DNA of 64,000 bases from Flavobacteriia bacterium (GTDB lineage: Bacteria; Bacteroidota; Bacteroidia; Flavobacteriales_D; Crocinitomicaceae), in NCBI GenBank assembly GCA_947450325.1, contig CANFUT010000016.1, forward strand, positions 1 through 64,000, in the 5' to 3' direction. The notes below the pieces were generated by a model, which saw nothing but the letters and a program-made list of their open reading frames with translations, was not told the origin of the DNA and ran no database searches. Shown piece by piece: positions 42,569 to 64,000 of this stretch. The stretch's first letter is position 1; each line of letters starts with the position of its first letter. Position numbers and translations under genes: made by a program.

Positions 42569-45500
42569 ATGTCAACATATAATAAATTTATTACTGTTAA
42601 AACTGCTGATATGGAAAATTCTTTTTCTAAAAGATTAAGATTTAATTTTTTAAATTTTTCTTGCCTTATTATTTTTCTTGCTTCGTTTTTCGGGAGTGAC
42701 GTTTTTGGTCAGACTACTGTATCTTTTGCTTACACAGGTGCCAATCAAACATGGACTTGTCCTCAAGGAGTGACATCGATAACAGTGAAGGTTTGGGGAG
42801 CAGGTGGTTCTGGAGCAGGAGGACCTAGTGCTGGTGGTTCTGGTGCATTTGTAACTGGTACGATGGCTGTAACTCCTGGTACTACTTATGTGTTGATTGT
42901 TGGAGGCGGAGGTACATATGGTTCTGCTGCTGCTGGTGGTTTTGGTGGTGGCGGTCAAGCAGGTACTGGTACTGGTGGAGCAAGTGGTGGAGGTTACAGT
43001 GGAATTTTTACTACATCAGTGTCTCAAGCTAATGCGCTTGTAGTTGCAGGTGGTGGCGGTGCTGCAGGATATTATGGCGGTGGCACGTATGGTGGAGCAG
43101 GCGGAGCTACTTCGGGAACTGCAGGAGGAAATAGGACTGCTGGAACATTTACAGGCGGCGGCGGAGGTACAACTTCAGCAGGTGGTGCCGGAGGAGTTGG
43201 CGGAGTTGGTGGTGTAGCTGGATCTGCTTTAGCAGGTGGTAAAGGCGCAAATAATACTTACGGTGGTGGCGGCGGCGGCGGCGGTTATTTTGGCGGCGGC
43301 GGTGGATATGCAGCCGCCAATACTACTAATTATTCTTCTGGAGGAGGAGGAGGCTCATCTTTCATATCATCCTCTATGAGTGGGGTAACTAATACAGTTG
43401 GAACAACAAATACTACTGCTGTTGCAAATCAGGCACCAGGAAGTGCTCAATCTGGTTACGTTGCTGGTTGTGGTAATGGAGGTGCCAGTTCCGCAGCAGG
43501 GGGGAATGGACTCATAGTTATTACTATTCCTTGCACAGCGCCTGTTGCACCAACAACAATATCTGGTACAACATCAATTTGCCCAAGTTCAACAACAACA
43601 TTAACCGCTTCTGGCGGAACCACTGGAACTGAAGGTAGATATTATTGGTATTCTGGAGCGTGTCCTACCAATGCGTTTGCGCAACATTGGACAGGTAGAA
43701 CTAATCCATACACTCCGACTACAACTACAGTAAACAAGGTTGATGGAGGTTATATAAATTTGACTTCTACGAATAACGATCCGAATTTAAATATGACTGG
43801 TCTGGGTTCTTTTAGTCCCACAACTTATAAATATGTTAATGTAAGATTTAGGGTCACGTCGGTAACTCAAGTTGGAGCCATGGAGATTTTTTGGTACAAT
43901 ACAGCTAATCCAACCGCAAGTGGGTCATTCTATAAAAATCAACCAATTACTAGTGTTCAAAATGTATGGCAAACAGTATCGATAGATATGACAACTCCTT
44001 CTGCCGGAAGTTGGACAGGATCGGCATCAAACATCACGGGATGGCGTTTTGATTGGACAACAAACTCTGGTGTCACGATGGATATTGATTTTGTATCACT
44101 TTCGTCGAGTCCAATAATTGGAGAAGGAACAACTTACACAACTGGAACAGCAGGTACTTATTATTCAGCAATTCAAAATGCTTGTGGATTATCAACATGT
44201 CAGAGTGCGACAGTAACAGTAGGTACTCAAGCAACCGCTGGAACATTTCAGTATTCAAATGCTAGTACTCAAACATTCTGCGCGGGTGGTTCAATTTCGT
44301 GCACCAACTCAACCGCTCCAACGAATGGAGGTTCAGGTACAGTTTCAACTGTTTGGTATTGCGGTGAATTGTTGAGTGGTACACCAGGTTCAGGAGGAAC
44401 ATACGGAAACTGGGTTCGTTCGACTACTGGTGGAACAGCATTATTAAGTGCAACAGGAACCAATGCGACTTCCTTAACAAATTATAACCCTCAAACTGAT
44501 TTTCCCGGTAAAACTAATTTTTATATTATTCGAAGAGCTTATACAGATATTTGCGGTGAGTGCGCGGGAGCTGGTGGTTGCTTAGATCAAATGTTTTATT
44601 TGAACGTAAATGCTGTTTCTGCTACACCAGCAATTACCGGTACTTATTGTCCTGGAGCAACAACTGTTTCAGGTACAGGAGTGAATGGTTCAACAATCAG
44701 TGTTATTCGAAGCGGTTCACAAATTGGAACAGCTACTGTTAGCGGAGGAGTATGGACGGCAACTGTTTCTACCTTAGCAGGAGCAGATATTTTAACAGCT
44801 ACACAAACAGAAAGTGGAAAATGTGTAAGTGTGGCGTCAGCATCCAATACTGTACTTTCAGCTTCAGCTGCACCAATCATTACTGGACCAATTTGCCCTG
44901 GAAGTACAACAGTTTCAGGAACAGGAATTAATGGTTCATCAATTAATGTAATTAGAAGTGGTTCTTCAATTGGAACAGCCACTGTAAGTGGGGGTGTTTG
45001 GACTGCAACAGTGTCAACCGTAAATGCTGGCGATGCGTTGACAGCTACTCAGACAGAGGTTGGTAAATGTGTCAGTGCGACAGCTTCTTATACTGTAATT
45101 ACACCTGCATCTTGGGGAAATATTCAATTTCCAACATCTCAGCCACAAAGTATCTGTGGTTCTCCTGTAACATTTTATGGTCAAGTTTATCGAGCTGGAA
45201 CAACGGAGGCAGCTGGACAAGGAGCAAGTTTGACTGCAGATTTGGGATGGAGTAATACAAATACAAATCCAAATACTTGGACGAATTGGACTTCAGCGAG
45301 TTTTAATGCGCAGTCAGGAAATAACGACGAATTTACGGCAGATTTAGGTGCAGGTCTTACAACGGGGCCATGGTATTATGCTTTTAGATATAATTATGCA
45401 GGTTGTCCAATTTATGGTGGATATGGTGGAGTATATGGTAGCGGTGGTTCAAATGGTCAAGCGATTGTTCCAGCATCACAAACTATTTCTTTGACTTCAT

Positions 45501-48500
45501 CCGTTGGAACGAATGCGCAGACAGTATGTAAAGGTTCAGCAATTTCAGCCATAAATTATACAGTTGGAAACGGAGCAACAGGAGCTTCTATAACTGGATT
45601 GCCTGCTGGAATAACTGGTTCTTACAGTGGTGGTGTGTTTACGATTTCAGGAACACCGACTGTTTCTGGAGTTTTTAACTATACTGTTACCACTTCTGGC
45701 GCAACAAATTGTGTTGTTCTTATAGCTGGAACAGTTACAGTTTCTGAAACATTGGATTTTGTTAATTTGCAATTCCCTTCCACAGCGTCAATCTGTTTTG
45801 GAAGTACTGCAAATATTTTTGGTCAAGTTTATGAAGCTGGTTTAACAAATCCAGCAGGTCAAGCAGCAGGTATAACTGTTCATTGTGGTATCAGCCCAGT
45901 GAGTTCAAATACAAACCCAAATACTTGGTCAAACTGGACCGCAGCAAGTTTTAATACCCAATCGGGTAATAACGACGAATATACAGCAACAATTGGCTCT
46001 GCCCTTTCAGCTGGTACTTATTATTATGCATACAGATATTCTTACAATGGTTGTGTATCCTATGGTGGATATAGTGCTGGTGGTGGTGGTTTTTGGGATG
46101 GTTCCTCTAATGTTTCAGGGGTCCTTACAGTTAATCCAACAAATACTGCTAGTTCAGCTTCATCATCTCCGACATTGTGTATTAATACAGCTTTAACTGC
46201 TATAACGCATACTACTGCAGGTGCAACTGGAATTGGTTCACCAACCGGCTTACCAACTGGGGTAACTGCATCATGGTCTTCAAATACGATATCGATCACA
46301 GGAACGCCAACTGCAACTGGAACTTTTAATTATAGTATTCCTTTAACTGGGGGCTGTGGTTCTGTAAATGCCACAGGAACAATTATTGTTACCCCTATAA
46401 ATAGTGCAGGTGTGGCTTCATCCACTCCTACTGTATGTAATAATTCTCCTTTAACAACGATTACACATACAACGGTAGGTGCAACAGGAATTGGGACCGC
46501 AACTGGATTGCCAACTGGTGTATCTGCGGCTTGGTCTTCAAATACGATATCGATCACTGGAACTCCAACTGGCATAGGAACTTTCAATTATTCTATTCCA
46601 TTAACAGGTGGTTGCGGCAGTGCAAATGCTACTGGAACAATTACTGTTACTCAACCAACAGTAAATCCAATTACAGGGACTACGACATTATGTGTTGGAC
46701 AAACTTCAACTTTAGGGGGTAATACTTTGCCTTATACTATTCAGTCTATTACATCAGTAGGAACAACTTCATTTACTCCTCCAGCTACAGGTGTGGCAGA
46801 GGTATTAGTTGTTGCTGGTGGCGGTGGCGGTGGTTTCGGTCGCGGTGGCGGCGGCGGCGGCGGCGGTGTTATTTACAATTCATCATATAGCGTAACAGCA
46901 GGTTCTCCGATTTCTGTTACTGTTGGCGCTGGAGGTACTGGTGGAACAACCAATGTTTCAAACTCGGCTACTGGAAATGGGCAAAACTCTGTTTTTGGAA
47001 CTATTACAGCTACAGGAGGTGGTTTAGGAGGATCACACAATCCAACAACAACTTCTAATTGTGCTGGTTTATCAGGAGGTTCTGGCGGCGGTGGCGCAAT
47101 CAATTACTCAAGCAGTTCTGTTTGGGCAGGTGGAACAGCCTCTCCAGCCGGACAAGGTTTTGCTGGTGGAACGTCAGGTCCAGCTGCGACAGATAATCCT
47201 AGAAATACAGGAGGTGGCGGTGGCGCTGGTGGCGTAGGAGTGACTTCTGGTTCTAGTACAACAGCTCCACCAAACGGCGGTGCAGGTATATCATATTCAA
47301 TTTCAGGATCAGCTGTATTTTATGGCGGCGGCGGCGGCGGTGCCGATGGTAGAGCTTCTGGTGAAACTATGACAACTGCGGGTGCAGGAACTGGCGGAAC
47401 AGGCGGCGGCGGAAACGGTGCAGCAATAGGAGGAAATCCAACAAGTGGCGCGGCAAATACAGGCGGCGGCGGCGGTGGAGGCGGTTCTGGTGGTTCTTCA
47501 ACTTCATTTGGAGGTAATGGCGGCTCAGGTATCGTGATAGTAAAATATCCTTCATCAACTTGGTCGTGGACAAGTAGTAACCCGAGTGTGGCAACAGTAA
47601 ATGCATCTACAGGGGTCGTAACTGCTGTATCAGCTGGGATAACAACGATTACTTTTACATTAACAACAGGAGGTTGTAGTAATTCTGCTAGCACAACCGT
47701 GACAGTAAATGCTAATCCTACAGCAGTTGCAACAAGTAATACACCAGTTTGTGGTGGTTCTGCTTTAAACTTAACTGGTACTACAAATATTGGGACAACA
47801 TTTAGTTGGACTGGACCAAATGGATTTACTTCAACGTCTCAGAATCCATCAATTTCAAATCCAACGAGTGCTGTTGCAGGTACCTATGCTTTTACGGCAA
47901 GTTTAAATGGTTGTTCTGCAACTGGAAATACTGTGGTTGCCTTTATTTCAGGTCCTACAAGTGTTACAGGTGGAAGCAATGCAACAATTTGTTACAATAC
48001 ATCAACAACATTGGCTGGTAGTGCGGTTGCCCCTAATGTTAACGTTACTGGTTCACAGACATTTACATGGCAAGGATCTGGGAATGATGGAGGAGCTTTG
48101 GGCAATGGAAATTCTGTTACAGGAACAACAACCGGTTTACCTACTGGAAGTACAATTACTTCAATTACATACACAACTGCTGTAAGATATACGTCTTATA
48201 CAGGTACCAGCTATTGTGGTAACTATTGGAATGCTAATTTATTAGTTAATAATGCAAGTATTGGTTCAGCGTGTGGTGTATCAAATATTAGTTACAGCGG
48301 GTTAAACGGTGCAGCAGCTAATAATCAAACATTTAAGTTGCAGGTAGTAGACGCAGATCTTTTTAATGATTTAAATTATGTAACGTTAACTGTAGTTGTT
48401 AATTATCAGTATCCTGCCCCTGCTCCAATAACATATGCATGGTCACCATCAACTGGTTTGAGTAACGCTGCAATTTCAAATCCAGTTGCTACTTTAACAT

Positions 48501-51500
48501 CAATCGCAACTTATACCATGACCGCAACATCTAATGGATGTTCGGTTGCGGCGTCACCTATTACGATTACAGTTCGTCCTCAATTTACTTCAGGTGCAAT
48601 CGCTACCACAGGTGAAACAATTTGTTCAGGAGGAACTCCATCTCAAATCGGAAGTTCTACTGCAGCAAGTGGTGGAGATAATTCAATAACGTACTCTTGG
48701 AGATCTTCTGCAGACGGTTACGTAGCCGCAATTTCAGGAGCAACTTCAGCAACTTACACACCACCTGCAGGTTTGACGTCAACAACAAGTTACAGACGTT
48801 ATGCGATTGACAATACATGTAATTTAACGCCAACTGTATCAACTGGTACTTGGACGGTAACTGTGAATTCCGTTCCAACTGCTGGAACAATTGCAAGTTC
48901 ACAAATAATTTGTAGCGGAACAGCTCCAAGTTTATTCACTTCATCTTCAAATGGGACTGGGACAGGTGCTGTTTCTTATGAGTGGCAAACCAATGCAAGT
49001 GGGTCGTATGCGACAATAGGAAGTGAAATTTCTTCAACATATCAAGCTCCAGTTTTAAGTGCAACTACAAGTTATCAGAGAAGAACGGTAGCCTTAAGTG
49101 GTGGTGTAACATGTTATTCAACTTATACATCACCAGTTACTATTACTGTAAATAGTAATCCAACTTTGTCAGGTATTACTTCAAGTTCAACCACTGTATG
49201 TGCAGGAGATGTTGCTACAATCACATTGTCTGGTATATTAGATGTTCCTCAAACCATTTCTTATACTATTGGGGGAACGGTAGGTACGCAAACAGCTACA
49301 GTTACTGGTGTGGGCGGTTCAGCGAGTTTTAATACAGTTACCTTAACTACTGCAAATGGTGGTCAGACAGTAACTATCACTGGCATAACACGTACAGATG
49401 TAACACCAAACTGTCCTTTTATTCCAAGTTCAGGAAATACGGCTACATTGCCTTCAGTTAACTCTTGTTCTTTAATTACCCCATCTACTAGTTCATTGAC
49501 AGCTTTTACTGCTTGTACAAACGTAGCTAGTTCAGAGCAATCATTTACAGTTATTGGCTCTGATCTTACAGCAGATATATTGGTAACGGCTCCAACAGGT
49601 TTTCAAGTATCGTTAAACTCTGGCTCTGGTTTTGGAAGTTCAGTGTCACTGACACAATCAGCTGGTTCGGTCGCATCAACCACTATATATGTACGTATGC
49701 TCTCAGCATCTACACCAGTAAATGGAAATATCACCCTTGCATCATCAGGTGCTGTAACTCAAAATGTATCAGTAAGTGGTTCTGTTAATCAGCTTTTAAG
49801 TGCTGTTTCAATAAGCGGAACCAATAATCAAATCATTTGTAGCAATGCTTCTGGTTCATTACTAACGGTTTCTGAAACCAACGGTGGCGTCATAACAAGC
49901 AGACAATGGGGTTACAGAACGACATCAGGGGGTGCAATTACATCCATTTCCGGCGTCACAGGTACAACTTATACTCCTTCAGGAGCAGATTTGCCAGCAG
50001 GTATATCCTATATTGTTTGCACATCAACGCCAACTTGTGGAAGCGCAGTAGTTTCCAACGAAATTACAGTAACTGAAACTTTATTGCCAACAATCACAGC
50101 TTCAACTTCAAATTTTGGCTGTGGAACTGGAACTGTGGGTATTTCTGCAACCGCAAGTGCTGGTACAATTGAGTGGTTCGATGCCTCTTTAAATGGTACG
50201 AGTCAAGGTACAAGTAATTCTGCTGCAACTTGGACAACACCAAGTATTGCGTCAACAACGATTTTTTATGCGGAAGCAGTCAATGGTTCTTGCCGTTCAA
50301 CTGCTAGAACAGCTGTGACAGCTACTGTAAATAGTATTCCAACGGTTACATTTACGGCTCAACCTGGTTCAACAAGCTGCTCGAGTAGCAATGTTACGTA
50401 TACTACGCAATCAGGTCAGGCAAATTATGTTTGGACATTCCCTGGAACGTTGAATACAGACTATACAATTACTTCAGGAGGAACAACATCCAGTAATACA
50501 GTCACGCTGCAATATTTAACGGCTGGAAGTAAAACGGTGTCGGTAAATTATGCTTCATCTGGATGTTCTGCTTTAACTGCGACTAGTTCAACTGCAACTA
50601 CGGTTTCAGTTACTCCTGCAGCACCTGCAGCTTCGAATGTAACAATTTGCGCAGGTGAATCAGCAAACTTGGTAGCAACTTCAGCTGGGAATAGCATTAA
50701 TTGGTATGATCAACAAACAGGTGGTACACTTTTATCATCTTTAGTTCAAAGTGGAGTAAATTATTCAGTTTCCCCATTGACAACTACAACATATTATGCA
50801 GAGGCTGCTACAACTTCTACAGGCTCTCCTCAAACGGTTTCATTTACAAATACTGGCGCTCTTCAAACATGGACAGTTCCGAATGGTGTTTTTAGTATAG
50901 ATGTGAAGATGTGGGGTGCCGGCGGAGCCGGTGGTTCATATAATGCAACACGAATAAATTCTGGTGGTTCTGGTGGATATGTTTCAGGATCATTAAATGT
51001 CACTCCTGGACAAGTTTTGAATTTAGTAGTTGGAAGCGGTGGTAAAGTATATCCTAATAATACGACAAGTCAATATGGAGGCGGTGGAGCCGGTGGATCA
51101 TCACTTTACTATTGCGGAGGCGGTGGAGGAAGAAGCGCCATACAATTTGTTTCCGGAACAGACTATGTAACCGCTGGTGGTGGTGGTGGTGGTGGAACCT
51201 CTCGATTGAGCGCTGGAAATGTAAATACAATAGGTATTGCATATGGTGGAGCTGGTGGAGGCGTTTCCGGAGGTGCCTCAGGAGCAACTTATAATTGTGG
51301 AGCAGCTACTGGAGGTACGCAGTCTGCTGGAGGAACTCAAGTGGAAGCTTTAGGTAATAATGGTGGTTCAGGATCCATATACACTGGTGGAAATGGAAAT
51401 ACAGTATATTATGGTTCTGGCGGCGGCGGCGGCGGCTATTACGGTGGTGCCGGCGGTGGTTGTGATTGGTGGAATGGTTATGGAAATGGCGGCGGCGGCG

Positions 51501-54500
51501 GTTCTTCTTATGTTGCAAACCTAACTTCATCTGTTAATACGCAAGGAAATATAAATACTGCTGGAGCTCAGGCTGCTGCACCTAATTCTTCTGATGCTAA
51601 TTACATATCAGGTGTTGGAATTGGAGGCGCTGGTGGAACAACTAACAATGGCGGTAACGGTTTAGTTGTGATTACTTACACCCAACCAGTTGTACAATGT
51701 GCTTCACCTAGGACTCCAGTTATTGTTACTGTGAATCCTACTCCAACCGCAAATGTCGGTTCAGCAATGTCTGCTATTTGCGCTGGACAAATGTCTGGAG
51801 CAATGGGAGGATCAGTTGGTGGTTCTGCAACAGGTGGCAATTGGAGCGGTGGCACAGGAACTTGGACAAACGCGAATAATCCTTCTACTGCTACTTATAC
51901 TGCAGGAGCAAGTGAATCGGGAATAGTTACTTTGACTCTTACTACATCAGGAGGAGGATGCGTTCCTATTACAGCTACAAAAACAATTTTTGTAAATTCA
52001 GTTCCTACAGCAAATGCTGGCGCTGATGCAACAATTTGTAATGGGTTATCCACTACTTTAAGTGGCACATTTACTTTACAGCCTATTTATTCAGATAACT
52101 TCGCTTCAAACAGTGGTTGGACACTAGGTTCTGGTTTTGCTATTGGAAGCGCAACTTCTTCAGGTACTTGTTCTTCAGTAGGTTCAGATCCTTCAACCGA
52201 TTTTACAACAACTTCTGACAATGGTATTCTTGGATTTCAAATTGGAGGATGTTATCCAGCAAGTATGGGTTCAACCATTTATGCAGTCTCACCAACGATA
52301 AACTTAGCTGGTTATACTTCTGCCTCAATGAGTTTTTATCGATGGTTGGGTGTTGAGAATAATTCATGGGATCACGCGTACATAGATGTTTTCAATGGTA
52401 CTTCTTGGGTGAATATCTTTTCAAATGGTGCAACTTCGTTAGATGACAACGCGTGGACATTGATGACTTACGATATTAGTGCTTATGTAAATGCTAATTT
52501 CAAAGTTCGATTTGGTATGGGTGGCTCTGATGGTACAGTTCAATATTACGGATGGAATATCGACGATTTAACAATTAATGCTGTGCTTCCTGCAACGTAT
52601 GCATGGTCTCCGTCAACAGGATTAAGTGCAGCAAATATAGCCAATCCAGTTGCTTCACCAACATCTGATCAGACGTACAGTTTAGCTGTAACTACAAACG
52701 GATGTACATCTTCCGCTGATCAGGTAACTGTTTTTGTAAATCCTGTTTCAGTAGGTGGTACAGCATCAGAAAATCAAACAATTTGTACTGGTTCATCTCC
52801 AGCTAACATTACACTTACTGGTAATACTGGAAATATTCAGTGGCAAGTGTCGTCTGACAATGTTACTTTCTCTAATATTGCGAGTGCTACTTCTTCTACT
52901 TTGACCTCAGCTCAAATGGGAACATTGACAGCAACTCGCTATTACCGTGCTTCTGTAACAAGTGGTGTTTGTTCTGCGGCTAATTCCAATGTAATAACAG
53001 TTACTGTAAACGCTAATTCAGTTGCTGGTTCAGTAAGTTCGAATCAGACGATTTGTTACAATGCGAGCCCTTCAAATATTACTTTAACTGGTAATACAGG
53101 AACTATTCAATGGCAAGTTTCTACCGATAATTTATCTTTCACAGATATTGTTGGAGCAACAGCTTCGCCATTAACTGGCGCTCAAATGGGTACTTTGACT
53201 GCTACTACGTATTATCGTGCGGTAGTTACAAATAGTCCTTGTTCATCTATTAATTCTGCATCAGTAACAGTTACGGTTTTACCTGCTCTTACGATGTCAG
53301 GCACGTTGTCTGCTTGTATTGGTGCAACTTCAGATTTAAGTGTTCCTGGTGAAACAGATTGGACACTTCCTACAGGTGGTACAATTACAACAATCGGAAA
53401 TGATCGAATTCATACATTCACTTCATCTGGAACTTTTACATCGTCACAAGCAATTCCTAGTGCTAGAGCAATTGTTGTCGGCGGTGGTGGTGGCGGCGGA
53501 TCAAATGGCGGCGGCGGCGGCGGAGCAGGAGGATTTTATCAAAATAATTCATTATCTATTTCTTCAGGTGCAACTACTGTAACTATTGGTGCTGGTGGTG
53601 CTGTGCATAACAATTTAGCTACTCCAAATACTGCTGCAACTATTGGCGGTCAATCTGCTTTTGGTTCAATTACTGCCGGTGGTGGTGGTGGTGGTGCGTC
53701 ACGTGATAATGGTGTTGGCGGTCAAAATGGAGGAACTGGAACAGTTTCTGGTTCTGGCGGCGGCGGCGGCGGATCATCTGCTACTCCTAGAAATAGTGCA
53801 GGTACAGGAACGTTCTCTGGTGGCGTTGGTACAGCTCCAGATTTAGGAGTGAATGCTACTGGTGGAGGCGGTGGCGGTGCTGGTGGATCTGGTTCAGCTG
53901 GAGTTTCTATTGTCGCTGGTAATGGAGGTATCGGTGTTCAAAGCAATATTTCTGGTACAAATTTATGGTATGCCGGTGGTGGTGGTGGTGGTACTACAAT
54001 CAACGGTACCAATGGAACAGGCGGTAGTGGAGTTGGTGGTAATGGAGAATCAACAGCTGGTTCTACAAATACTGGATCTGGTGGTGGTGCTGAAAGAGTT
54101 GGAGCCGCTGGAGTAGTTATTGTTCGCTATACAATTCCTACTTGGGTAAGTAGTAATCCTGCTGTAGCCACCGTTAATCAACAAACTGGTGTGGTGACTG
54201 CAGTTAGTACTGGAACAACAACTATCACTTACACTTCAACTCTAGGTTGTACAGCGATTCAAACATTTACTGTAAACCCAATAGCAATCCCAGCTTCGGT
54301 AGCTACAGCTACAGGTGCTACTTTAGCTTCTGGAGATTTATTATGGACAGGAAATTCGACAACTGTTTGGGGCTTAAATACGAATTGGGTTGCTTATGAT
54401 GGAACTAATTTTGTTGTTCCTGGAGCTGGAATAGCACCAACAGCGAATGATAGGGTTTTTGTTTTGCCGAGTTCAACTTCTGGAATTTGCATAAGCGCAA

Positions 54501-55936
54501 CAAACAACACAACAGTAACCGCAGCAGGTACAGCCAAAGATGTTTTCATTGGTTCAGGTGCAACGATGGTCATCAATGCTGGTCAAAGCTTACAAGTAAA
54601 TGGCGATTGGACAAACAACGGAACATTTACACCAAATGCAACTGCAAATGTTGAATTTGCAGGTGGTGCTGCCCAAACAATCGGCGGTTCATCGGCAAAT
54701 TATTTTACAAATTTGACATTAAATAAATCTGCGAATACGCTGACTTTGAATACATCTGTAACCGTTTCTGGCACATTGACAATGACTGCTGGAAACATTG
54801 CGACGAGTGCCTCAAACTTATTGACAGTAGGAACTTCACCAGCTTCTCCAGGTTCGATTGCTTGGACAGGTGGAACAGTTGTTGGACCTTTGAAAAGATA
54901 CATCTCAGGTACTACAAGTTCAACACAAGCATCTGGAATTTTCCCTGTAGGTTTAAGTGGCGTGAATCGCTATGCACAAGTTAATTACACTAGTGGTTTA
55001 ACTACTGGAGGTTCAATAACTGCAGAATATAAAGCTGGTTCTTGTCCCGTACTTTATGCTGGTTTACCAAACACTGTTAATGGTCAAATGATTCAAAACT
55101 ATGAAAATGAAGGATATTGGTCAATTACACCAACTGGAGGCGATTTGAATTCGGCAACTTATTCTCTGATCTTGAGAGGAAATACATTGAGTACAGTAAC
55201 CTCTCCTGCAGACATGGTAAAACTTCGAATCATTAAATCTACAAGTCATACTTCTTGGGAGATGTCTGGAATTGGAAGCAATTCTGGAACAACAGGTGGC
55301 GTATCAGATTTCACGATTGCCAATACTGGTATGACTGGCTTCAGTTTCTTCAACATTGGGTCAGGGAATGCAAATCCTTTGCCAGTAACTCTTTTAGATT
55401 TCTCTGCTAATTGCAATGAAAAATCTCAAGTTAACGTTCAGTGGACAACTGCAAGTGAGCAAAATTCTCAGTCTTTCATTATTGAACGAAGCAGAGACTT
55501 AACAGAATGGCAATTTGTAACAACTGTGAATGCTGCAGGAAATTCAAATTACAACATTGACTATTCAACAATTGATACAGATCCTTTCAGTGGTGTTTCA
55601 TACTACCGTTTGGTTCAAGTGGATTTCAATGGTCAGGAATCTATTTATGGACCAATCAGTGTGGCTTGTGCAGAAGCTGAAAATAGCATGGTTGTTTTCC
55701 CGAATCCAACGACTGGAAACTTTACAGTTGAAATATCGACAGATCAGAATTTGAATGATTCACAATTGATTATTACAGACCTATCTGGAAAAGTAATTTC
55801 AACTAGAAATATCAATGTGCTTCAAGGTAAAACACAAGCAATTTTTGAAAATCAAGATTTGCAATTAGGAACATACATCATTCAATTGAATTCATCCAAT
55901 CACAATATTCAACCGGTAAGGGTTGTTGTGAATTAA
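42569..55936 (+). CDS. Giant secreted multi-domain adhesin-like protein with four Gly-rich modules and T9SS sorting domain
   Basis: The protein has 4455 aa from ATG 42569. An ATG at 42611 gives the tightest signal peptide (hydrophobic [13 protein letters not shown], cleavage near VFGQ). The GTG at 42533 is less likely. The body is a chain of Ig-like and BIG-like domains with paired Cys. Between or inside them lie four glycine-rich modules (about 42718-43533, 46740-47552, 50825-51684, 53360-54135), a jelly-roll module with [10 protein letters not shown] (52068-52585), and tandemly duplicated domains. Near the C-terminus come a beta-rich region ([20 protein letters not shown]), a fibronectin-like domain ([19 protein letters not shown]) and a T9SS type A sorting domain ([16 protein letters not shown], ending IQPVRVVVN). 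The likely role is surface adhesion or matrix; ligands are unknown. Confidence 0.93.
42718..43533 (+). repeat. Gly-rich module A1 of the giant adhesin
   Basis: This coding segment opens with [19 protein letters not shown], continues with many GGGG runs ([17 protein letters not shown]) and closes with GNGLIVITI. It shares its opening and closing signatures with module A2. It directly follows the signal peptide, so it is at the N-terminus of the mature protein. Confidence 0.85.
44621..45112 (+). repeat. Tandem duplication, 246-bp period (82-aa Ig-like unit)
   Basis: Two units, starting at 44621 and 44867, encode the same domain: [20 protein letters not shown] against [20 protein letters not shown], then [17 protein letters not shown] in both. 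The DNA differs mainly at third positions, so the duplication is not very recent. Confidence 0.9.
46142..46657 (+). repeat. Tandem duplication, 258-bp period (86-aa unit)
   Basis: Two units, starting at 46142 and 46400, encode [20 protein letters not shown] and [20 protein letters not shown], both ending [12 protein letters not shown](V/A)NATGTI. The DNA includes an identical stretch of more than 20 bp around the shared SSNTISIT codons, pointing to a fairly recent or homogenised duplication. Confidence 0.9.
46740..47552 (+). repeat. Gly-rich module B1 of the giant adhesin
   Basis: This segment starts with [20 protein letters not shown], continues with [25 protein letters not shown] and repeated GGGGGAGG runs, and ends [13 protein letters not shown]. 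Its opening, the VFGTITA motif and its close match module B2. A BIG2-like half-domain ([20 protein letters not shown]) follows at once. Confidence 0.85.
50825..51684 (+). repeat. Gly-rich module A2 of the giant adhesin
   Basis: This segment starts with [19 protein letters not shown] and includes [20 protein letters not shown] and [11 protein letters not shown], with GNGLVVITY at the end. It is homologous to A1 and sits inside an Ig-like domain whose last strand resumes as [15 protein letters not shown]. Confidence 0.85.
52745..53284 (+). repeat. Tandem duplication, 270-bp period (90-aa unit)
   Basis: Two units, starting at 52745 and 53015, encode [19 protein letters not shown] and [19 protein letters not shown], then [15 protein letters not shown] against [15 protein letters not shown]. 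It is a known Bacteroidota Ig-like form with a strongly conserved IQWQVS strand. Confidence 0.9.
53360..54135 (+). repeat. Gly-rich module B2 of the giant adhesin
   Basis: This segment contains [55 protein letters not shown] and ends [12 protein letters not shown]. It is homologous to B1 and again is followed directly by a BIG2-like half-domain ([20 protein letters not shown]). Confidence 0.85.
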
Positions 55937-55953
55937 TAAACAAATAAATAATT

Positions 55954-55989
55954 GAAAAAATCCTACTCGTCTTGAGTGGGATTTTTTTT
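55954..55989 (+). terminator. Rho-independent terminator of the giant adhesin gene
   Basis: ATCCTACTC (55960-55968) pairs with GAGTGGGAT (55974-55982) over 9 bp with one G-T pair and a 5-nt loop. A run of T to 55989 follows, and an A-tract precedes. It begins 18 nt after the stop codon. Confidence 0.85.
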
Positions 55990-56002
55990 GCCAAGGATTT
56001 TT

Positions 56003-56121: not shown

Positions 56122-56141
56122 AGATAAACCTTTTTTTTTTG

Positions 56142-56571
56142 AGCTACGGATGCACTGATTTTGTTAGGTTTATTTTTTATGTCCTTAATTCCCACCAACA
56201 TGTCGCTAGGCATCAAATATGGGTAGCCCAAGTTTCCCACACAAAACCCTGATGCCGTTAGGTATCAAATTTCCTTTTAATCCGTGCATCCGTGTCATAC
56301 CTCTTTTTTATCCAGCAACGTGGGGACACAATGCATTGTGTCCCCACAGACAAACCTCTTTTTAGCCACGGATGCACGGATTTTGGCAGGTTTTTTTGTG
56401 TCCTTAATTCCCACCAACATGCCGTAAGGCATCAAATATGGGTAGCCCAAGTTTCCCACACAAAACCCTGATGCCGTTAGGTATCAAATTTCCTTTTCCC
56501 CTTTAATCCGTACATCCGTGGCAAACCAACTTTAATTTTTCTTTTCAGCATTTAATCAGTGCATCTGTGGC
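56142..56571. mobile_element. MITE-like element pair with 18-bp inverted termini
   Basis: The better copy spans 56365-56522. Its ends GCCACGGATGCACGGATT and AATCCGTACATCCGTGGC are inverted with one mismatch. A diverged copy spans about 56144-56296. The interiors share long near-identical stretches (CTTAATTCCCACCAACATG, ATGGGTAGCCCAAGTTTCCC, CCTGATGCCGTTAGGTATC) and small ATGCC/GGCAT hairpins. A lone right-end-like sequence (AATCAGTGCATCTGTGGC, 56554-56571) matches the left end of copy one best. There is no transposase here, so it would be non-autonomous. Confidence 0.6.
56320..56347. repeat. Second copy of the 28-bp perfect palindrome
   Basis: GTGGGGACACAATG followed by its exact complement is identical to 56094-56121. 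It sits between the two MITE-like copies, so palindrome plus element form a repeating unit of about 226 bp. Confidence 0.85.
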
Positions 56572-57139
56572 TTTTTTCTCTTTTATCTGACTAGCGGAGT
56601 TCTTGATACATAAAAATACAATCATCCGATCATCTAACAACCTTGCTATCTAACTGTTTGATTTTAAACATTTATGTTTCTTTTCTTTTTCCCCTAAATT
56701 TAAAACCACACAATTCCGTGTAATTTTTAACTATTTATTAATAAATCGTATAATCGAGAATTTAACCCATATTTGACATTTTTTTAATATAAATATTCAT
56801 TCAAAGTGCTATTATATTCGATAAAAGTATATTTTTGTTCATTGTTTGTCAGGGTAAATAATGTTTAAATTAACTTCGTATTCTGTTTTTTTTGGTGAAA
56901 AATAGGTAAATGAAGAACGCTAATTTAACAATTTGGTGTTTTTTTATTTTTTTTCAAACCAAATGATGTTCATAATCGTTTAATGAATATTATATTATTG
57001 AATACTGATTTTTAACACTTATTAACCCCACAAAGTGCTACTATTAATAAATTATTAATGGTTTTTTTTGGCCTTAATAATTTATAAATTAAACAATTAT
57101 CTCACTTTTAGTTAGGATACTAACTTTTTCGTGGGTTTT
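56572..57139. other. AT-rich leader region of the second giant gene
   Basis: About 570 bp with many stops in all frames and A/T runs. No gene, repeat or hairpin could be supported by eye. It likely holds the promoter of the gene at 57151. Confidence 0.45.
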
Positions 57140-57147
57140 TATATTTG
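57140..57147 (+). promoter_or_regulatory. -7 box close to the second giant gene start
   Basis: TATATTTG matches TAnnTTTG but lies only 3 nt before the ATG at 57151. If used, the transcript would start at or after that ATG and the ATG at 57193 would be the true start. No -33 TTTG is visible. Confidence 0.25.
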
Positions 57148-57150
57148 AGA

Positions 57151-60100
57151 ATGAAAAGATTTTTACGCTTAGCAGCAGAAAGAACAAAGACTATGAAAAA
57201 ACAATACAATATGAATATGCAAAATTTCAATTTCCTTTTGAAATCTAAGATTTTAGTTGGTTTCTTGTTATTTATTGGGTTAAGTACAAATGTACTCGCT
57301 CAACCAACTGTTTTGTATACAGGATTAAGTTCGACTACTCCTGCCGCCTCAAATTCAAGGTTCGCTTTAAACACTGTTGGTGCTTTTAAACAAATTCGTT
57401 TTCAAGCCAATCAGACTGCAGCTGTAAGTACTTTAGGTTGGGCTTTCCATTCAGGTACAACAGGTTCACCTAATTATAGCCCAAGCTGGAGACCTGGTTC
57501 TGGAGGTAATACGATGTCTGTTAACACGTTTATTCCTACAAGTTTTGCAAACGGCGCTGTGTATAGTGCTTCTGGCACAGGGACTGATGGTTTGTTGCCT
57601 GCTATAACGAATGGTAATTATTATACTTTTAATGTAGCAAACAATGCAACTGCAAGTAACGTAATGTCATTGTTAGAAACTAACTTCAATCCTACAGTTT
57701 TAAGTACCGTATCTTTTACAACGCCGGCAAATACCAATAATGGTTCGCAGGTAACTGTAACTGCTGCTACTGCGCCTGCTGTTGGTGAATATGTTTATGT
57801 ACGTTACTCTTTTGATAGTTATGTTACTTCAACTTTGGTACAAGTTTCTTTTTCTGGAACAACAGGTACTGCATTTATTCCATGTAGAGGTTCTGCTGGA
57901 AGTGTGAGTTTCTACGTTTATTCTAGTAATAAAACCGCTGCTCAAATTAATACAGATGTAACTGGAAATGGGCAAACTGCACATGATATGGCTACGTTGA
58001 ATTTGAATAATAATGCAGGTGCAAATTTCTCTTACACTCAAGGAACTGGTTCAGCTTTTGCTGGGGTTTATAACGTACCTAGTTCTTGCTATGCAACAAT
58101 TGCTTCGTTTGTTACTGCTTTGAATGCAGCCACCATTACTGGACCTGTTACATGTGTTGTAGCAGATGGTTATAGCGAAACTGCTCCAACTGGTGGTTAC
58201 AGTATAACGGCTAACGGGACTTCTGCAAATACAATTATTTTTCAAAGATCAAATTCTGGTGGTGCAAAACCAATAATTACTGCACCGCTTTGGACCGCAG
58301 GTGGTACAACCGATGGAATATTTAAAATAATTGGTGGAGATTATATAACTATAGACGGATTTACAATTCAAGAAAATGCATCAAATACTGTCACAGCGGT
58401 AGGAGCCACAAACACAATGACTGAAATGGCAATTGGTTTATTTTTAACCACAGCAACAAATGGTGCCCAAAATAATACGATTAAAAACAATACGATTACT
58501 TTAAATTCCATTTATGCAAACAGTGTAGCTATATTTTCCTCTTCAGCGAGTTCATCTACAAATACGGCTTTAGCTGCTTCAGCAACCACCGGTACTAATT
58601 CATCAAATAAAATTTATGGCAACACAATTTCAAATGTTGCTTATGGTGTTTATGTTATTTCTCCTGCTAATACTGCAACGATTATTGAAAATGGATGGGA
58701 TATTGGAGGATCATCTGCATCAACAGGAAATACTATAACTTTTGGTTCTGTTACGACTTCCACACTTGTTTTCACTTCTTTTTCAGCAGTATTGCCTGCG
58801 GCGATTACTTTCAGGAATGCTAATACCGGACAAAATGTAAGTTATAACACTATTACTTCCAACTCATTGGCATATGCTCAAACTTCAGGTTTAGGCGGAA
58901 TAGTTCATACATTTGGAACTGCACCAACTGGAATTACCCATACAAATACTATTTCAAACAATACAATTACCTTAACAAATACAAGTACAACTGCGATTAC
59001 AGGTATTGATTTTGGAGCAGGTTTAGCAACAGGTACTATCGTCGGAAGTTCAAATAATTTAACTTTAAACCAAACAGCTACCGCTGCAAATGCAGCAGCT
59101 ATAATTGGTATCAAAGCAAATTATGCATCAGCCACAAATACTTGTAGTTCAAATACAATTGTTTTCAACCAATCAAATACAACCGGTGCATTGTCAAGTG
59201 CAACCACTGGAATTACTTTGGCTGGAGCAGGAACAACTTTGACAGCGAGTTCAAATACAGTTACTTTTAACCAAACGGGTTCGGGAACTGCAACTATAAC
59301 AGGCGCAATAATTGGTATCGATTATTCAGCAGCTGCAACGACTATAAATTCCCTTTCGAATACGGTTGTTTTGAATCAAACGACAGCTGTTGCTTCAGGT
59401 ATTTCAAATGCATTTACTGGATTGAAAGCAACGACAGCATCTACAACAGTGAATATAGGCGGTGTTGGAACTGGAAATACAGTTACTGTAAAACAAGCTT
59501 TTACTGGTTCTGGTACTTATGGTGCTGGGGCAATTACTTACATAGATTTAGGAACAGCTACACATGCAACTGCAAATGTACTTGCCAATACTTTGAATAC
59601 AACAGGTTCAACAGTTAGAAGTACTGGAGCTCTTATTGGTGTGTTATGTAACGGTACTGTTTCTGCTTTATATAACATTAAAAGTAATACTGCCACTATA
59701 GACAGAGTTGCAGCATCTGGTTCAATTGTTTTTACAAGTCAGAGTGGTACACCATCTAACGTTGCTGATACAGTATCAAGCAATACAATAACTTTCACCA
59801 ATTTGGCTGGAACAACCACAGCAACAGGAATCAGCCAGCTTGGAGGACCATCGACGCCAACTGGATTAAACAAAAACATTAACAACAATACAATTAATAT
59901 CAGTGGTACGAATACAGGTACAACTTTGGGAATTACCCTTAATTATACTGCAACTAGTAATGTAAAAAACAATGGAATTACTATTAGTTGCGTTGCGCCA
60001 ACTGTTACAGGAATAAATACTGCTACTTCGGCAAGCGCAGTTACTCTAAGTGGCAATACGCTTAGTGTTACTACTAGTACAACGTCTTTAACAACCTTAA

Positions 60101-63100
60101 CAGGAATAAATATTTTGGGTGGTGGGGCTCACAGTGTTACGAATAACACTTTTACTACGATAGCTGCTACTGGGATTTTGGCAACTGGTGGTACCACAAA
60201 TGGTATCGCAATTGCAGGAGGAACTGCAGCCAATGTATTCGGAAATCATGTGACGAATATTTCTGTTGGAGCAGCAACTAGTTCAGGTTCACCTACAATT
60301 AATGGTATAATTGTATCAGCAGGAACCTCTGTAAATATTTATCGTAATAAAATTCAAGGAATTTCTTCATTGTGTGCAGGTGCAACAACAGTTGCAAATG
60401 GGATTTTAGTATCAGGTGGTACAACCAACAATATTTACAATAACTTGATAGGAAATCTGACTTCAAGTGCTTCTGCAAATGCTGATGGAATTAGAGGTAT
60501 TGCGTTTACTTCTACTACTGCAAGTTCAACTCAAAATGTCTACTACAATACTATTTATTTAAATGGGACTTCCTCTGGCGCAACTTTTGGTGGTTCTGGT
60601 GTTTTTCATACGATTAGTGCTACGGCGACAACTTCGGCACTTGATTTAAGAAATAATATTATTATTAACGCAATTACTCCTAACGGTGCCGCATTAGCAG
60701 TTGCATACAGAAGAAGTACTAGTGCTTTGACTAATTATAGCGCTACTTCAGACAAAAATGATTTTTTTGGTACAAGCGGTTTATTTACTGATGGAACAAA
60801 TACGTACACTACTTTAGCTTCATTTAAGACAGCCATGTCTACAAGAGATCAAGCTTCACAAAATGTTAATCCAACTTTTTTAAGTACAGTCGGTTCAAAT
60901 GTCAACTATTTGCACATTGATGGTACTTTCAATGCATTGGGAATTGAAGCTTCTGCAGGTGTAATTGCAACATATACAACAGATTACGACGGGCAAACAA
61001 GAGATGCTTCTTTGCCTGATATTGGTGCAGATGAGTTTGTTGCAACTGTTCAATGTGCAACTCCTACATCTCCTACTAATAGTGCGACTGGTGTTTTACA
61101 AACGACTTCTTTAACTTGGACGGCTGTAACAAATGCTACTAGTTATGATGTGTACTTTGGTACTTATGCAGCTGCAACTAATATTGTAAATGGAACAAAT
61201 CAAACTGCGACAACATATACTCCTGCTAGTTCATTGAGTGCAAGTACAACCTACTATTGGAAAATAGTACCTAAAAATTCAGTTTCGACTGCCACTGGTT
61301 GCACAATATGGTCTTTTACAACAAGTGCAGCAAATCCAACTTTAAGCGTCGTAACTTCTCCAGCAGCTTTCGGGAACCAATGCCAAAATGTAGCTTCGAG
61401 TGCCAATTCATTCACAATTTCTGGTGTAAATCTTACAGGTACTTTTGTTACGATAACGGCACCATCGGGTTTCACGGTTTCAGAAGACAATATTACTTTT
61501 GCGTCATCAATCAATGTGAATCATTCAAGTGGTTCGCTTACAAATAAGACTATCTATGTAAAATTCACTCCAACGACAGCAACTGCATATTCTGCAAATG
61601 TTGTAATCAACGGAGGAGGCTTATCTGCGAACGTCAATGCATTGGTAACAGGAACAGGACTTCCGGCTTCAACGCCTACAGTTTCTATTTCTGCTTCGCC
61701 TTCTACGACTTTTTGCGCAGGTACAAATGTTACTTTCACTGCAGTTGGAGCAAATTTAAATAGTACATCAGTTACTAATTATCAATGGTTTGTTGATGGT
61801 TCAAGTGTTCAGAGTAGTGCGAGTGCAACATATGCTTCTACTGGATTTACAAATGCACAAACGGTATATTGTATAATTACAACTTCAGCTGGATGTGTGA
61901 CGTCAACATCAGCCACTTCAGCCACTTCAACTTTAACAGTTAATGCGACTCCAGTTGTTACGATTTCTAGTTCAATTAACAGTTATTGTGGTACAACGCC
62001 ATTGGCATTGACAGGAAATGGTGCGACAACCTATACTTGGTCTCCAATTACAGATTTATATACAGACGCAGCAGGAACCGTAGCTTATGTTGCATTAGCA
62101 AATGCATCAGTAGTTTACAGTAAAGCTCAATCTACGTTAAATTATACTGCGACTGGAACAACTTCTGGTTGTTCATCAACAGGATCTAAGTCAATTGCAA
62201 AAGGAGCTCCAGTAACATTGGGTACAGTAACTGCAGCGCAACCAAGTGCTTGTGCTGGGGGAACTGTCCAATTGAATGGTAGTGCAACGGTTTCTTCATC
62301 AGCATCAAGTTATGCATTCGCAGCGACGAGTGGTACATATAATTCAATTACCGGGGGAACGGTTATTAGTGATGGAAGTGTAACTACTTTAGATTCTTAT
62401 GTTTCTGGATCGATTACAATCCCGGCTTTTGTGTTTGCAGGTGTTACTTATACAACCGCTTGGATGGCTTCCAATGGAAGTTTAAATTTAGGAGGTGCTG
62501 CGCCAAGTACAACTGCTTACAACGTTATAAGTACTACGACAGGGAGTGGAATTTCTTTAGCAGTATTTAATGCAGATCTTTATGTTGTATCATCCGCTAC
62601 CTCTTCGGAAATGCGTTGGCAACAAATAGGTAACGAGGTAGTTTTTCAGTGGAAAAATTTCAGACGATATCTTGAAACTGAATCATTTAGTTTTCAAGCA
62701 CGATTGAATACCGTTACTGGTGTAATTACTTATGTTTATGGAGGTGCCCCTACTTTTGGTAGTGGTACTTCATACCAACCAATCGTAGGGATTCGGACCA
62801 GTGCCACAGACTTTAAAAATGTTCAAATTGGCAGTGGCGCTGCGACTTGGGCTGCACCAAATATAGGAGCTGCAAATACTGATGTATGCAGATTTACAAC
62901 CACTGCTCCTTCAAAAGTATTTGTAGATGGTCAAACTTATTCTTTCACCCCGCCATCATTAACTTATTTATGGACGAAAACCAATGTTTCCAATTTATTA
63001 AGTTCAACTACGATTACAAATCCTGTTGCAACAGTAAACGCAACAGATACATATACTTTCACAGCTACTGGTTCTGATGGTTGTTTTGCCGCTGGTAATG

Positions 63101-64000
63101 CTACTATTAATTTAGGGGGAGGTGCTCCAACAGTTACAGCCCTTTCAAGTGTACCAAGTATTTGTGTTGGTGGTTCAGCTACATTGAGTAATACAATTAC
63201 TGGTGGTTGTTCTCCATTTACTTATTCATGGAGTGACGGTTCAACAGTTGTAAGTTCAGCAAGTTCATTTTCTGCAACACCAACTTCCACCAAAACATAC
63301 ACGTTAACTGTTACAGATAACAATGGTTCCATTGTTGCTTCGGCGGTTACGGTAACTGTAAATAGTTTGCCTACAGTAACAGTAAATAGCGGTGCTTTTT
63401 GTACAGGCGGAACAGCAGTAGCATTAACAGCCTCAGGTGCTTCGACTTATTCTTGGAGTCCTGCTACAGATTTAAGTGCTACTGCAGGTGCTTCAGTAAA
63501 TGCATCTCCTACAGTAACTAGAACTTATACTGTAACAGGAACTGATGGAAATGGTTGTATTTCAACCGCTAATTCAGTAGTTACTTCTAATCAAACTCCA
63601 ACCACTATATCGGTCGCTCAATCGCCTGCCGCAGTTTGTTCAGGGAGTGTTGCAAGTTTAAGTGCCACAGGTGCTCAAGTTGGTTTATCAGCGTATATGG
63701 CTCCAGTATCACCAACAACTCAAGGAGGATCAATTAGCAGTGTTGCTTATGCCATCGGAACCTATTATCAAATTTTTGATGTATTGCAAGCGACTACGTT
63801 GGTTTCCATTGATGTTTTTCCTACTGCAACGGTTGGTACAGTTGGTACTATTTCAATCGCTAATAGTGCAGGAACAATATTGACAAGTGCAAATTATACT
63901 GTGACAAATTCTAGTGGAACAGTTGCACATACAGTTGTATTGAATTATCCACTTGCAGTTGGAACAGCATACAGAATTGGTCAAGGAGGTACAGCTATTA
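57151..64000 (+). CDS. Giant secreted beta-helix and Ig-like repeat protein, 3' end beyond window
   Basis: The frame is open from ATG 57151 to the window edge, 2283 codons without a stop. An ATG at 57193 is an alternative start. The signal peptide has a hydrophobic core LVGFLLFIGLSTNVLAQ. Residues about 55-380 are beta-rich. Residues about 390-1290 look like a right-handed beta-helix with repeated N-N-T-[IV]-x-[FLV] turns (NNTIKNNTITLNS, SSNTVTFNQTG, YNNLIGNL) and the usual closing DIGADEF. A fibronectin-like domain follows (SLTWTAVTNATSYDVYFGT), then Ig-like domains (SYSWSPATDLSATAGA). The domain families are those of the gene upstream, but no Gly-rich module is seen so far. A T9SS domain would be expected beyond the edge. 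The likely role is a surface or secreted adhesin. Confidence 0.9.
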   Translation, partial: MKRFLRLAAERTKTMKKQYNMNMQNFNFLLKSKILVGFLLFIGLSTNVLAQPTVLYTGLSSTTPAASNSRFALNTVGAFKQIRFQANQTAAVSTLGWAFHSGTTGSPNYSPSWRPGSGGNTMSVNTFIPTSFANGAVYSASGTGTDGLLPAITNGNYYTFNVANNATASNVMSLLETNFNPTVLSTVSFTTPANTNNGSQVTVTAATAPAVGEYVYVRYSFDSYVTSTLVQVSFSGTTGTAFIPCRGSAGSVSFYVYSSNKTAAQINTDVTGNGQTAHDMATLNLNNNAGANFSYTQGTGSAFAGVYNVPSSCYATIASFVTALNAATITGPVTCVVADGYSETAPTGGYSITANGTSANTIIFQRSNSGGAKPIITAPLWTAGGTTDGIFKIIGGDYITIDGFTIQENASNTVTAVGATNTMTEMAIGLFLTTATNGAQNNTIKNNTITLNSIYANSVAIFSSSASSSTNTALAASATTGTNSSNKIYGNTISNVAYGVYVISPANTATIIENGWDIGGSSASTGNTITFGSVTTSTLVFTSFSAVLPAAITFRNANTGQNVSYNTITSNSLAYAQTSGLGGIVHTFGTAPTGITHTNTISNNTITLTNTSTTAITGIDFGAGLATGTIVGSSNNLTLNQTATAANAAAIIGIKANYASATNTCSSNTIVFNQSNTTGALSSATTGITLAGAGTTLTASSNTVTFNQTGSGTATITGAIIGIDYSAAATTINSLSNTVVLNQTTAVASGISNAFTGLKATTASTTVNIGGVGTGNTVTVKQAFTGSGTYGAGAITYIDLGTATHATANVLANTLNTTGSTVRSTGALIGVLCNGTVSALYNIKSNTATIDRVAASGSIVFTSQSGTPSNVADTVSSNTITFTNLAGTTTATGISQLGGPSTPTGLNKNINNNTINISGTNTGTTLGITLNYTATSNVKNNGITISCVAPTVTGINTATSASAVTLSGNTLSVTTSTTSLTTLTGINILGGGAHSVTNNTFTTIAATGILATGGTTNGIAIAGGTAANVFGNHVTNISVGAATSSGSPTINGIIVSAGTSVNIYRNKIQGISSLCAGATTVANGILVSGGTTNNIYNNLIGNLTSSASANADGIRGIAFTSTTASSTQNVYYNTIYLNGTSSGATFGGSGVFHTISATATTSALDLRNNIIINAITPNGAALAVAYRRSTSALTNYSATSDKNDFFGTSGLFTDGTNTYTTLASFKTAMSTRDQASQNVNPTFLSTVGSNVNYLHIDGTFNALGIEASAGVIATYTTDYDGQTRDASLPDIGADEFVATVQCATPTSPTNSATGVLQTTSLTWTAVTNATSYDVYFGTYAAATNIVNGTNQTATTYTPASSLSASTTYYWKIVPKNSVSTATGCTIWSFTTSAANPTLSVVTSPAAFGNQCQNVASSANSFTISGVNLTGTFVTITAPSGFTVSEDNITFASSINVNHSSGSLTNKTIYVKFTPTTATAYSANVVINGGGLSANVNALVTGTGLPASTPTVSISASPSTTFCAGTNVTFTAVGANLNSTSVTNYQWFVDGSSVQSSASATYASTGFTNAQTVYCIITTSAGCVTSTSATSATSTLTVNATPVVTISSSINSYCGTTPLALTGNGATTYTWSPITDLYTDAAGTVAYVALANASVVYSKAQSTLNYTATGTTSGCSSTGSKSIAKGAPVTLGTVTAAQPSACAGGTVQLNGSATVSSSASSYAFAATSGTYNSITGGTVISDGSVTTLDSYVSGSITIPAFVFAGVTYTTAWMASNGSLNLGGAAPSTTAYNVISTTTGSGISLAVFNADLYVVSSATSSEMRWQQIGNEVVFQWKNFRRYLETESFSFQARLNTVTGVITYVYGGAPTFGSGTSYQPIVGIRTSATDFKNVQIGSGAATWAAPNIGAANTDVCRFTTTAPSKVFVDGQTYSFTPPSLTYLWTKTNVSNLLSSTTITNPVATVNATDTYTFTATGSDGCFAAGNATINLGGGAPTVTALSSVPSICVGGSATLSNTITGGCSPFTYSWSDGSTVVSSASSFSATPTSTKTYTLTVTDNNGSIVASAVTVTVNSLPTVTVNSGAFCTGGTAVALTASGASTYSWSPATDLSATAGASVNASPTVTRTYTVTGTDGNGCISTANSVVTSNQTPTTISVAQSPAAVCSGSVASLSATGAQVGLSAYMAPVSPTTQGGSISSVAYAIGTYYQIFDVLQATTLVSIDVFPTATVGTVGTISIANSAGTILTSANYTVTNSSGTVAHTVVLNYPLAVGTAYRIGQGGTAI

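Follow-up and report, generated by a model that had tools for sequence, protein, structure and literature searches.

Discontinuous Ig-like domains with loop-borne modules in two predicted type IX-secreted proteins of a Flavobacteriia bacterium

Introduction

Two neighbouring genes in a 64,000-nucleotide stretch of DNA from a Flavobacteriia bacterium (assembly GCA_947450325.1, contig CANFUT010000016.1, positions 1 to 64,000 of the forward strand; hereafter the window) encode giant proteins composed of repeated immunoglobulin (Ig)-like domains, among which lie large unrelated modules. Are these modules strung end to end with the Ig-like domains, or do they sit inside them? An inspection of the sequence, here called the original prediction, had proposed that eight foreign modules interrupt single Ig-like domains. 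All eight exist, and the total for the two complete genes is 13. The explanation that we regard as likely, taken as a whole, is that the two products are type IX-secreted Ig-stalk proteins whose discontinuous Ig domains carry portable modules in their loops. The two genes are:

42533..55936, plus strand: gene 1 (P0001), a giant Ig-repeat protein of 4467 residues with six insert sites
57145..64000, plus strand: start of gene 2 (P0003), a giant Ig-repeat protein that leaves the window and comprises 5155 residues once completed from the contig (stretch L004)

Results

Modules interrupt Ig-like domains at 13 sites

Six insert sites lie in gene 1 and seven in the completed gene 2, two of the latter beginning in the window. 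The inserted modules of the two genes are 134-293 residues long. Those that begin in the window are the following:

43667..44110, plus strand: insert 1, 148 residues, no family found, in the CC' loop of an Ig_7 domain (host 43538-43666 and 44111-44230)
46718..47548, plus strand: insert 2, Gly_rich_2 module B1 (89.5 bits), at the BC position of a Big_2-like domain (host 46652-46717 and 47549-47710)
48026..48427, plus strand: insert 3, 134 residues, no family found, in a BC loop (host 47948-48025 and 48428-48580)
50816..51694, plus strand: insert 4, Gly-rich module A2 (ALK_LTK_GRD, 56.6 bits), in the FG loop of an Ig_7 domain (host 50606-50815 and 51695-51739)
52067..52588, plus strand: insert 5, a jelly roll resembling MAM and cleaved-adhesin domains, in a BC loop (host 51989-52066 and 52589-52747)
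53360..54136, plus strand: insert 6, Gly_rich_2 module B2 (57.9 bits), ahead of a Big_2 C half (host 53279-53359 and 54137-54283)
62290..62955, plus strand: insert 7, 222 residues, no family above cut-off, in a BC loop of gene 2 (host 62209-62289 and 62956-63114)
63676..64000, plus strand: insert 8, 151 residues in full, in a BC loop (N half of host 63586-63675)

The true end of insert 8, read from contig stretch L004, corresponds to window coordinate 64128. Mapped onto the translations, every interval of the original prediction is in frame and sits between the first part and the last part of an Ig, with boundaries accurate to about eight codons; the AWSPSTGLS-type motif (11 residues) said to resume behind two inserts is indeed present there.

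Intact Ig domains of these proteins, 18 in number, served to build a hidden Markov model (HMM). At each of the 13 sites, the two flanks match successive, non-overlapping stretches of this profile, for example at positions 4-27 and 34-87, 4-70 and 74-88, or 6-50 and 54-90. Complementary profile parts were counted at 12 sites, the exception being B2. The joined flanks score above the better half at 11 of the 13 sites; the score at g1_CC is 10.7 alone and joined, and that at B2 fell. In a random control, either the upstream or the downstream half was replaced by substitutes (2 x 100 per site), and the joined score was reached by no substitute at seven sites. With the upstream and the downstream half replaced, respectively, it was reached by 1 and 9 substitutes at g1_CC, 6 and 0 at g1_B1, 2 and 0 at g1_BC1, 2 and 0 at g1_BC2, and 1 and 3 at g2_BC5. 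Against solved structures, the Ig profile matches a chain of GhpA (E = 2.9e-141, 35 stretches) and RemA (E = 1e-11).

Pfam provides a test that is independent of this HMM and is given for six of the 13 sites. Three of the four flank pairs that could match Ig_7 (PF19081, cut-off 27.3 bits) exceed the cut-off when joined, over nearly the whole profile. The joined flanks of insert 1 cover positions 1-82 of 84 with 30.8 bits (the parts were not scored singly), those of insert 4 match the full profile (1-84 of 84) with 72.1 bits versus 53.4 for the N part alone, and those of the C'E site reach 53.1 bits versus 28.1. The remaining two sites given have Big_2 (PF02368) hosts, and their joined flanks match only from profile position 24 or 35 onward.

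The break points show a loop preference

Loops were called from the strand pattern of the sequence, in which C-x-G with a hydrophobic stretch marks the B strand, YxW the C strand, TYxV the F strand and VTV the G strand, and not from a resolved model. Nine of the 13 sites fall at BC (two of these in Big_2 hosts), two at FG, one at CC' and one at C'E. At BC sites the N part of the host measures about 22-33 residues, compared with 43-70 elsewhere, and the FG break lies just before the last strand. BC and FG loops are both located at the Ig end that bears the antigen loops in antibodies. An absolute rule placing all inserts at one end of the Ig was dropped, since the CC' site of gene 1 and EF-like sites in two related loci (L065 and L190) contradict it. 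The excess of BC sites is partly a detection effect, because the second half that remains is long after a BC split and only about 15 residues after an FG split.

Cargo modules lie mostly in the BC loop of WSP-type Ig-like domains and in the FG loop of Ig_7-type domains, plus CC' and C'E once each in these genes. The Ig_7 pattern NWY-x-TGG occurs in none of 30 BC hosts, in 6 of 219 intact Igs and in 6 of 8 FG hosts; by eye, a seventh FG host (L202) carries it one letter off the pattern, and L024 is without it. Because the pattern was composed after the FG hosts had been seen, this port rule is put forward as a hypothesis for new data.

Nesting recurs in related genomes

Reading by eye revealed 18 further BC cases in 12 other Flavobacteriales genomes of four families (L036, L037, L041, L065 (two), L019, L107, L035 (two), L121, L110 (two), L119, L038 (two), L115, L136 and L150), together with one FG case (L024) and one EF-like case (L065). 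These regions form a non-random sample, most having been fetched for matching an Ig or cargo of gene 1. A LamG module near an Ig end in L036 was left uncounted, its loop being ambiguous. A split-alignment scan of 105 gap segments from 44 Ig-rich open reading frames (ORFs) gave 26 segments at >=35 bits versus 0 in each of three shuffled sets; since some of the 26 proved by eye to be missed intact or PKD-like domains, only eye-read cases were used. A list of headless hits held 47 entries before removal of repeats, and four of the ten shown (L014, L079, L097 and L042) are no splits.

The original prediction stood to fail if the two halves never occur joined in orthologues. Intact Ig counterparts do exist elsewhere. 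Thirty BC hosts (seven from the two genes and 23 from relatives) were joined by script and aligned to a set of 219 intact Igs; in every case, a single intact domain was matched across the two halves. The joined score exceeds the unjoined score in 30 of 30. The N side shows a mean of 9.0 identities when joined, 4.1 when unjoined and 3.7 with a swapped upstream piece.

These comparisons bear on an end-to-end arrangement, in which each flank would be a complete small domain or a linker. The presence of the same modules un-nested elsewhere fits such an arrangement, as does the failure of AlphaFold2 to resolve the joined Ig (see below). Against it stand the flank coordinates, which are complementary on the Ig profile and neither overlap nor repeat, the nearly full-length Ig_7 match at three sites, the gain on joining in every BC host and the recurrence of the same break point across families. 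We consider it very unlikely. Judged by sequence, nesting of modules within Ig-like domains is real and recurrent.

One cargo family occurs in several contexts

Six aligned sequences of about 200 residues with an invariant WxG (alignment A12) define a module that we call WDG as a working name. Two members belong to gene 2 and lie beyond the window (L004:8759-9325 and L004:13229-13765). For the members given, no Pfam family above cut-off, no NCBIfam match and no PDB sequence match was found, and the module would merit a family of its own. The WDG profile has matches, many of them partial, in 214 of 299 genomes of the order at E <= 1e-5. Among the best 30 loci, which include many close relatives and four repeats of BC cases from the eye-read set, 29 carry the module in a BC loop (that of L158, in gene 2, by the Ig HMM) and one is cut by a contig end. 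Lower in the ranking, 23 instances (at most two per locus, 20 loci) comprise 11 BC, 2 FG, 1 EF-like and 9 un-nested modules, six of the last behind an apparent signal peptide and three in other contexts. Three of the 11 BC calls are less sure, namely one site of L189 and those of L184 and L185, whose hosts look SprB-repeat-like by eye; the SprB-like host of L184 has no Pfam match. That WDG is found in both loop types, BC and FG, and also un-nested behind signal peptides indicates that the cargo is portable. The many un-nested instances in the lower order-level ranks and at phylum level led us to reject the idea that WDG is tied obligatorily to Ig loops. Recurring among the lower-ranked hits are ORFs of ~1090-1180 residues (L193, L194 and L201), in which a partial WDG match is followed by a stretch that looks LamG-like by eye.

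The jelly roll of insert 5 (52067-52588) is modelled with confidence over most of its length. Foldseek, run with the model holding it, returned immune inhibitor A, meprin, the MAM domain of neuropilin-1, the K1 cleaved-adhesin domain of Kgp and CBM22, with low TM-scores for a model that includes low-confidence Ig. Its sequence scores 23.3 bits with InhA-like_MAM (cut-off 26.9) and 16.4 with choice_anch_J (cut-off 30), so that it falls outside the MAM family as defined by profile, and a sequence search found no PDB chain. A MAM search across the 299 genomes gave matches in nine, the source genome included. Modules of records named Euryarchaeota or Poseidoniaceae (L088-L094, L096) share 39-47% identity with the jelly roll over aligned columns, values no lower than those of bacterial relatives in the same alignment. 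Transfer of the jelly roll between domains of life is possible on these similarities.

Other cargo types also recur. By eye, the insert 3 type is found in a BC loop of L065 (same genus), and insert 7 resembles an insert of the same locus. Cargo in relatives comprises a reelin subrepeat B (56.8 bits), proprotein convertase P-domains (30.4 and 24.4 bits, cut-off 21), MAM-like modules (by eye), GEVED modules (L041 and L150, by Pfam) and modules without a name. One Gly-rich module of gene 1 stands outside any Ig, end to end behind the apparent signal peptide (by eye):

42698..43550, plus strand: Gly-rich module A1 (ALK_LTK_GRD, 26.5 bits, cut-off 24.5)

The proteins were originally thought to have grown by in-frame loop insertion rather than by end-to-end addition. 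The nesting agrees with the first half of that claim, and the exclusion of the second does not hold: both arrangements occur, with Gly-rich, GEVED and WDG modules also un-nested.

Both proteins carry type IX sorting domains

The C-terminus of gene 1 matches the sorting domain of type A substrates of the type IX secretion system (T9SS), with 34.8 bits for Por_Secre_tail (cut-off 27) and 26.9 bits for TIGR04183 (cut-off 23). The type A tail of gene 2 scores 49.6 bits (cut-off 27). Both products thus possess a C-terminal sorting domain above cut-off, by which T9SS type A substrates are recognised, and a signal peptide is apparent by eye near each N-terminus. The C-terminal parts of the two genes (54260-55936, and 70954-72588 of the contig) are 69% identical over 371 residues compared.

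Tails related to these C-termini were observed in other genes of four same-genus genomes and in four more of 59 genomes searched. Por_Secre_tail has 112 matches at E <= 0.001 genome-wide, a large secretome for 3.4 Mb. Ahead of the Ig stalk of gene 2, residues ~300-1290 have the look of a long right-handed beta-helix (N-x-I/V repeats, by eye); no Pfam match to a beta-helix family was found within the in-window part. Distant from both genes lies one further feature:

241-322, minus strand: tRNA gene

Structure prediction and other counter-evidence

Several results weigh against the nesting explanation or its generality. Two AlphaFold2 jobs were run, one on P0001 3068-3495 with alignment A2 and the other on P0001 3153-3405 with alignment A11, whose only sequences covering both halves are natural split domains. 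The jelly roll was resolved in both models, and neither contains a confident Ig formed from the two halves; in the second job, ten-residue means of the predicted local distance difference test (pLDDT) are 32-50 across the N half and 32-61 across the C half. No claim about the Ig fold made here rests on these models. Alignments A3-A10 were left unused: in most of them, MAFFT put the short N halves or some of the module in the wrong place, and A9 holds intact Igs only.

Support for the two Big_2 hosts is weak, including that for the N half of the B2 host (insert 6). With the Ig HMM, the B2 halves score 4.2 and 2.0 bits and 0.5 when joined, a joined score reached by 29 of 100 and 48 of 100 random substitutes; these low scores and the success of the substitutes are the reason why B2 was left out of the count of 12. 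With Big_2 itself, the joined B2 host gives 39.7 bits versus 37.8 for the C half alone, which is little gain, and the B1 host gives 34.0 bits joined versus 35.4, which is none; the Big_2 profile recognises the C half of B1. The location of B1 and B2 inside BIG2-like domains, as originally proposed, is weakly supported. The fourth Ig_7 pair, the BC host of the jelly roll, scores 22.2 bits over positions 4-84 of 84 when joined, below the cut-off. An intact WSP domain of gene 2 also falls short (18.9 bits), and for this reason the WSP-type domains are named Ig-like and not Ig_7.

In the comparison with intact Igs, the N side aligned over >=12 residues in 14 of 30 hosts in each control too, so that the aligned length is weak when taken alone; the argument relies on identities and scores. 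An unsystematic look through the same-genus genes fetched showed no two orthologues of which one has an insert and the other lacks it. In 40 genomes of the family, a headless Ig follows GEVED in one of 30 loci surveyed (L150, confirmed by eye), five of the loci having been read by eye and the rest judged by HMM only; a second nested GEVED, in L041, lies outside these 30. At phylum level, WDG is found in 29 of 247 genomes at E <= 1e-10, and 30 instances in 28 loci comprise 3 in FG loops, 1 in a BC loop and 26 outside any recognisable Ig, hence mostly un-nested.

Discussion

In the explanation that we favour, the T9SS would export each protein to the cell surface, where Ig-like beta-sandwich domains of ~90 residues would form a long stalk. 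The chain would leave an Ig at one loop, form a separate module, return and complete the Ig, so that both flanks fold as one domain and the module projects sideways. Because both termini leave from the stalk side, the far side of the module would be free to bind sugars, polymers or proteins. The cargo pool would include MAM-like jelly rolls and Gly-rich modules here, and P-domains, reelin subrepeats, GEVED and nameless modules in relatives. Projection and binding are probably the mode of working, by analogy with RTX adhesins and the cargo families. An Ig stalk that displays modules from its loops had been part of the original prediction; the chain of Igs with modules in loops, and flanks that are two parts of one Ig-type domain, agree with the sequences, and the display is what we infer. 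Such features suggest a modular system presenting binding modules on the cell surface.

The nesting could be genuine with the modules acting as structural spacers or tolerated passengers that have no role in display or binding. No insert here has a known activity, several match no family, and the Gly-rich modules could be structural. MAM, cleaved-adhesin, CBM and P-domain classes bind glycans or proteins. That several cargoes resemble these fold classes, an argument from known families, speaks against a spacer role, as does the presence of one cargo family in different hosts. A pure spacer or passenger role appears unlikely to us, and binding modules remain the preferred interpretation.

As to origin, modules may on rare occasions have entered a tolerant loop in frame, after which host-plus-cargo cassettes would have been copied and cargo exchanged. 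Alternatively, the nested units may be one ancient set of composite domains, spread by cassette duplication or recombination with almost no fresh loop insertion. Host kinship was read from pairwise scores over ~90 residues and not from a tree. For eight of 12 WDG-bearing Igs, the nearest relative is another WDG host, in two groups that cross genera (P3_BC3, L186, L187 and L188a; P3_BC5, L192, L202b and L188b), and some nested units accordingly give the impression of old cassettes that were copied, and not of fresh insertions. These pairings, and the BC site common to 29 of the best 30 WDG loci, accord with an ancient set. The other four WDG hosts (L035a, L121, L110a and L115) are nearest to intact Igs or to other-cargo hosts, which counts against our explanation as well as against an ancient set. 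Further points against the latter are that the same cargo occurs in BC and FG loops and that seven hosts with six cargo types share L009_29 as best intact domain, which may reflect only the nearness of L009_29 to the consensus. In addition, the second group includes an other-cargo host, P3_BC2, and four of its hosts share the best intact match P0003 1600-1682; cargo exchange is expected from both observations. The ancient-set alternative is tenable yet, in our estimate, rather less probable than its opposite. Within the insertion-and-copying scheme, cassette copying and cargo exchange both seem to occur.

A broader proposal is a Bacteroidota-wide port-and-cargo system, with two Ig subtypes, preferred loops (BC and FG) and a shared pool of binding modules, in which specificity would evolve by cargo swap with the stalk kept. 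We consider this extension about equally apt to hold or to fail. A natural beta-sandwich with preferred, reusable insertion loops is relevant to protein design and to the evolution of surface specificity. In RTX adhesins, split domains have served as a means of spotting ligand-binding modules (PMC12077191). Should this criterion carry over to the T9SS proteins of Bacteroidota, which are large and poorly annotated, an Ig lacking its head or tail would mark the position of a likely binding module, including modules without a name in the family libraries searched.

Among the papers listed by literature searches, with most subscription papers out of reach, no title or opening of an abstract contained a description of split, nested or inserted Igs in T9SS or Bacteroidota proteins. 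A T9SS-secreted heptameric hook is described in one report (PMC11205867). GhpA, the grappling hook of Aureispira (PDB 9flp and others), is a giant Bacteroidota protein with the same Ig family as the genes here. Its structure 9flp is presumably that of the heptameric hook. Among the matches listed, the Ig matches of GhpA are nearly contiguous from residue 1153 on, and the WDG profile matches no PDB chain at E <= 1, so that no WDG cargo was detected in GhpA. The gingipain cleaved-adhesin, MAM and CBM jelly rolls share with insert 5 a resemblance in fold at low sequence similarity.

The closest parallel is provided by the RTX adhesins MpIBP, FrhA and AhLap, in which, according to the reports, a ligand-binding domain emerges from a split Ig-like domain and its binding site is projected off the adhesin axis (PMC10865825, PMC12077191). 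As in those proteins, the Ig here is discontinuous and interrupted by another module, a correspondence seen at the sequence level. RTX adhesins have an RTX C-terminus and type I secretion, whereas the two genes here carry T9SS type A tails and fall outside the RTX group. In FrhA, the host N part is one 12-residue strand before the insert; here the break comes after ~22-33 residues (BC) or before the last strand (FG). Unlike the RTX adhesins, a single protein here contains as many as seven split domains whose cargo differs, and the likeness is one of arrangement. The proteins of this locus thus appear to work like RTX split Ig-like domains without belonging to the RTX adhesins, from which they differ in their T9SS tail and in where the Ig is interrupted.

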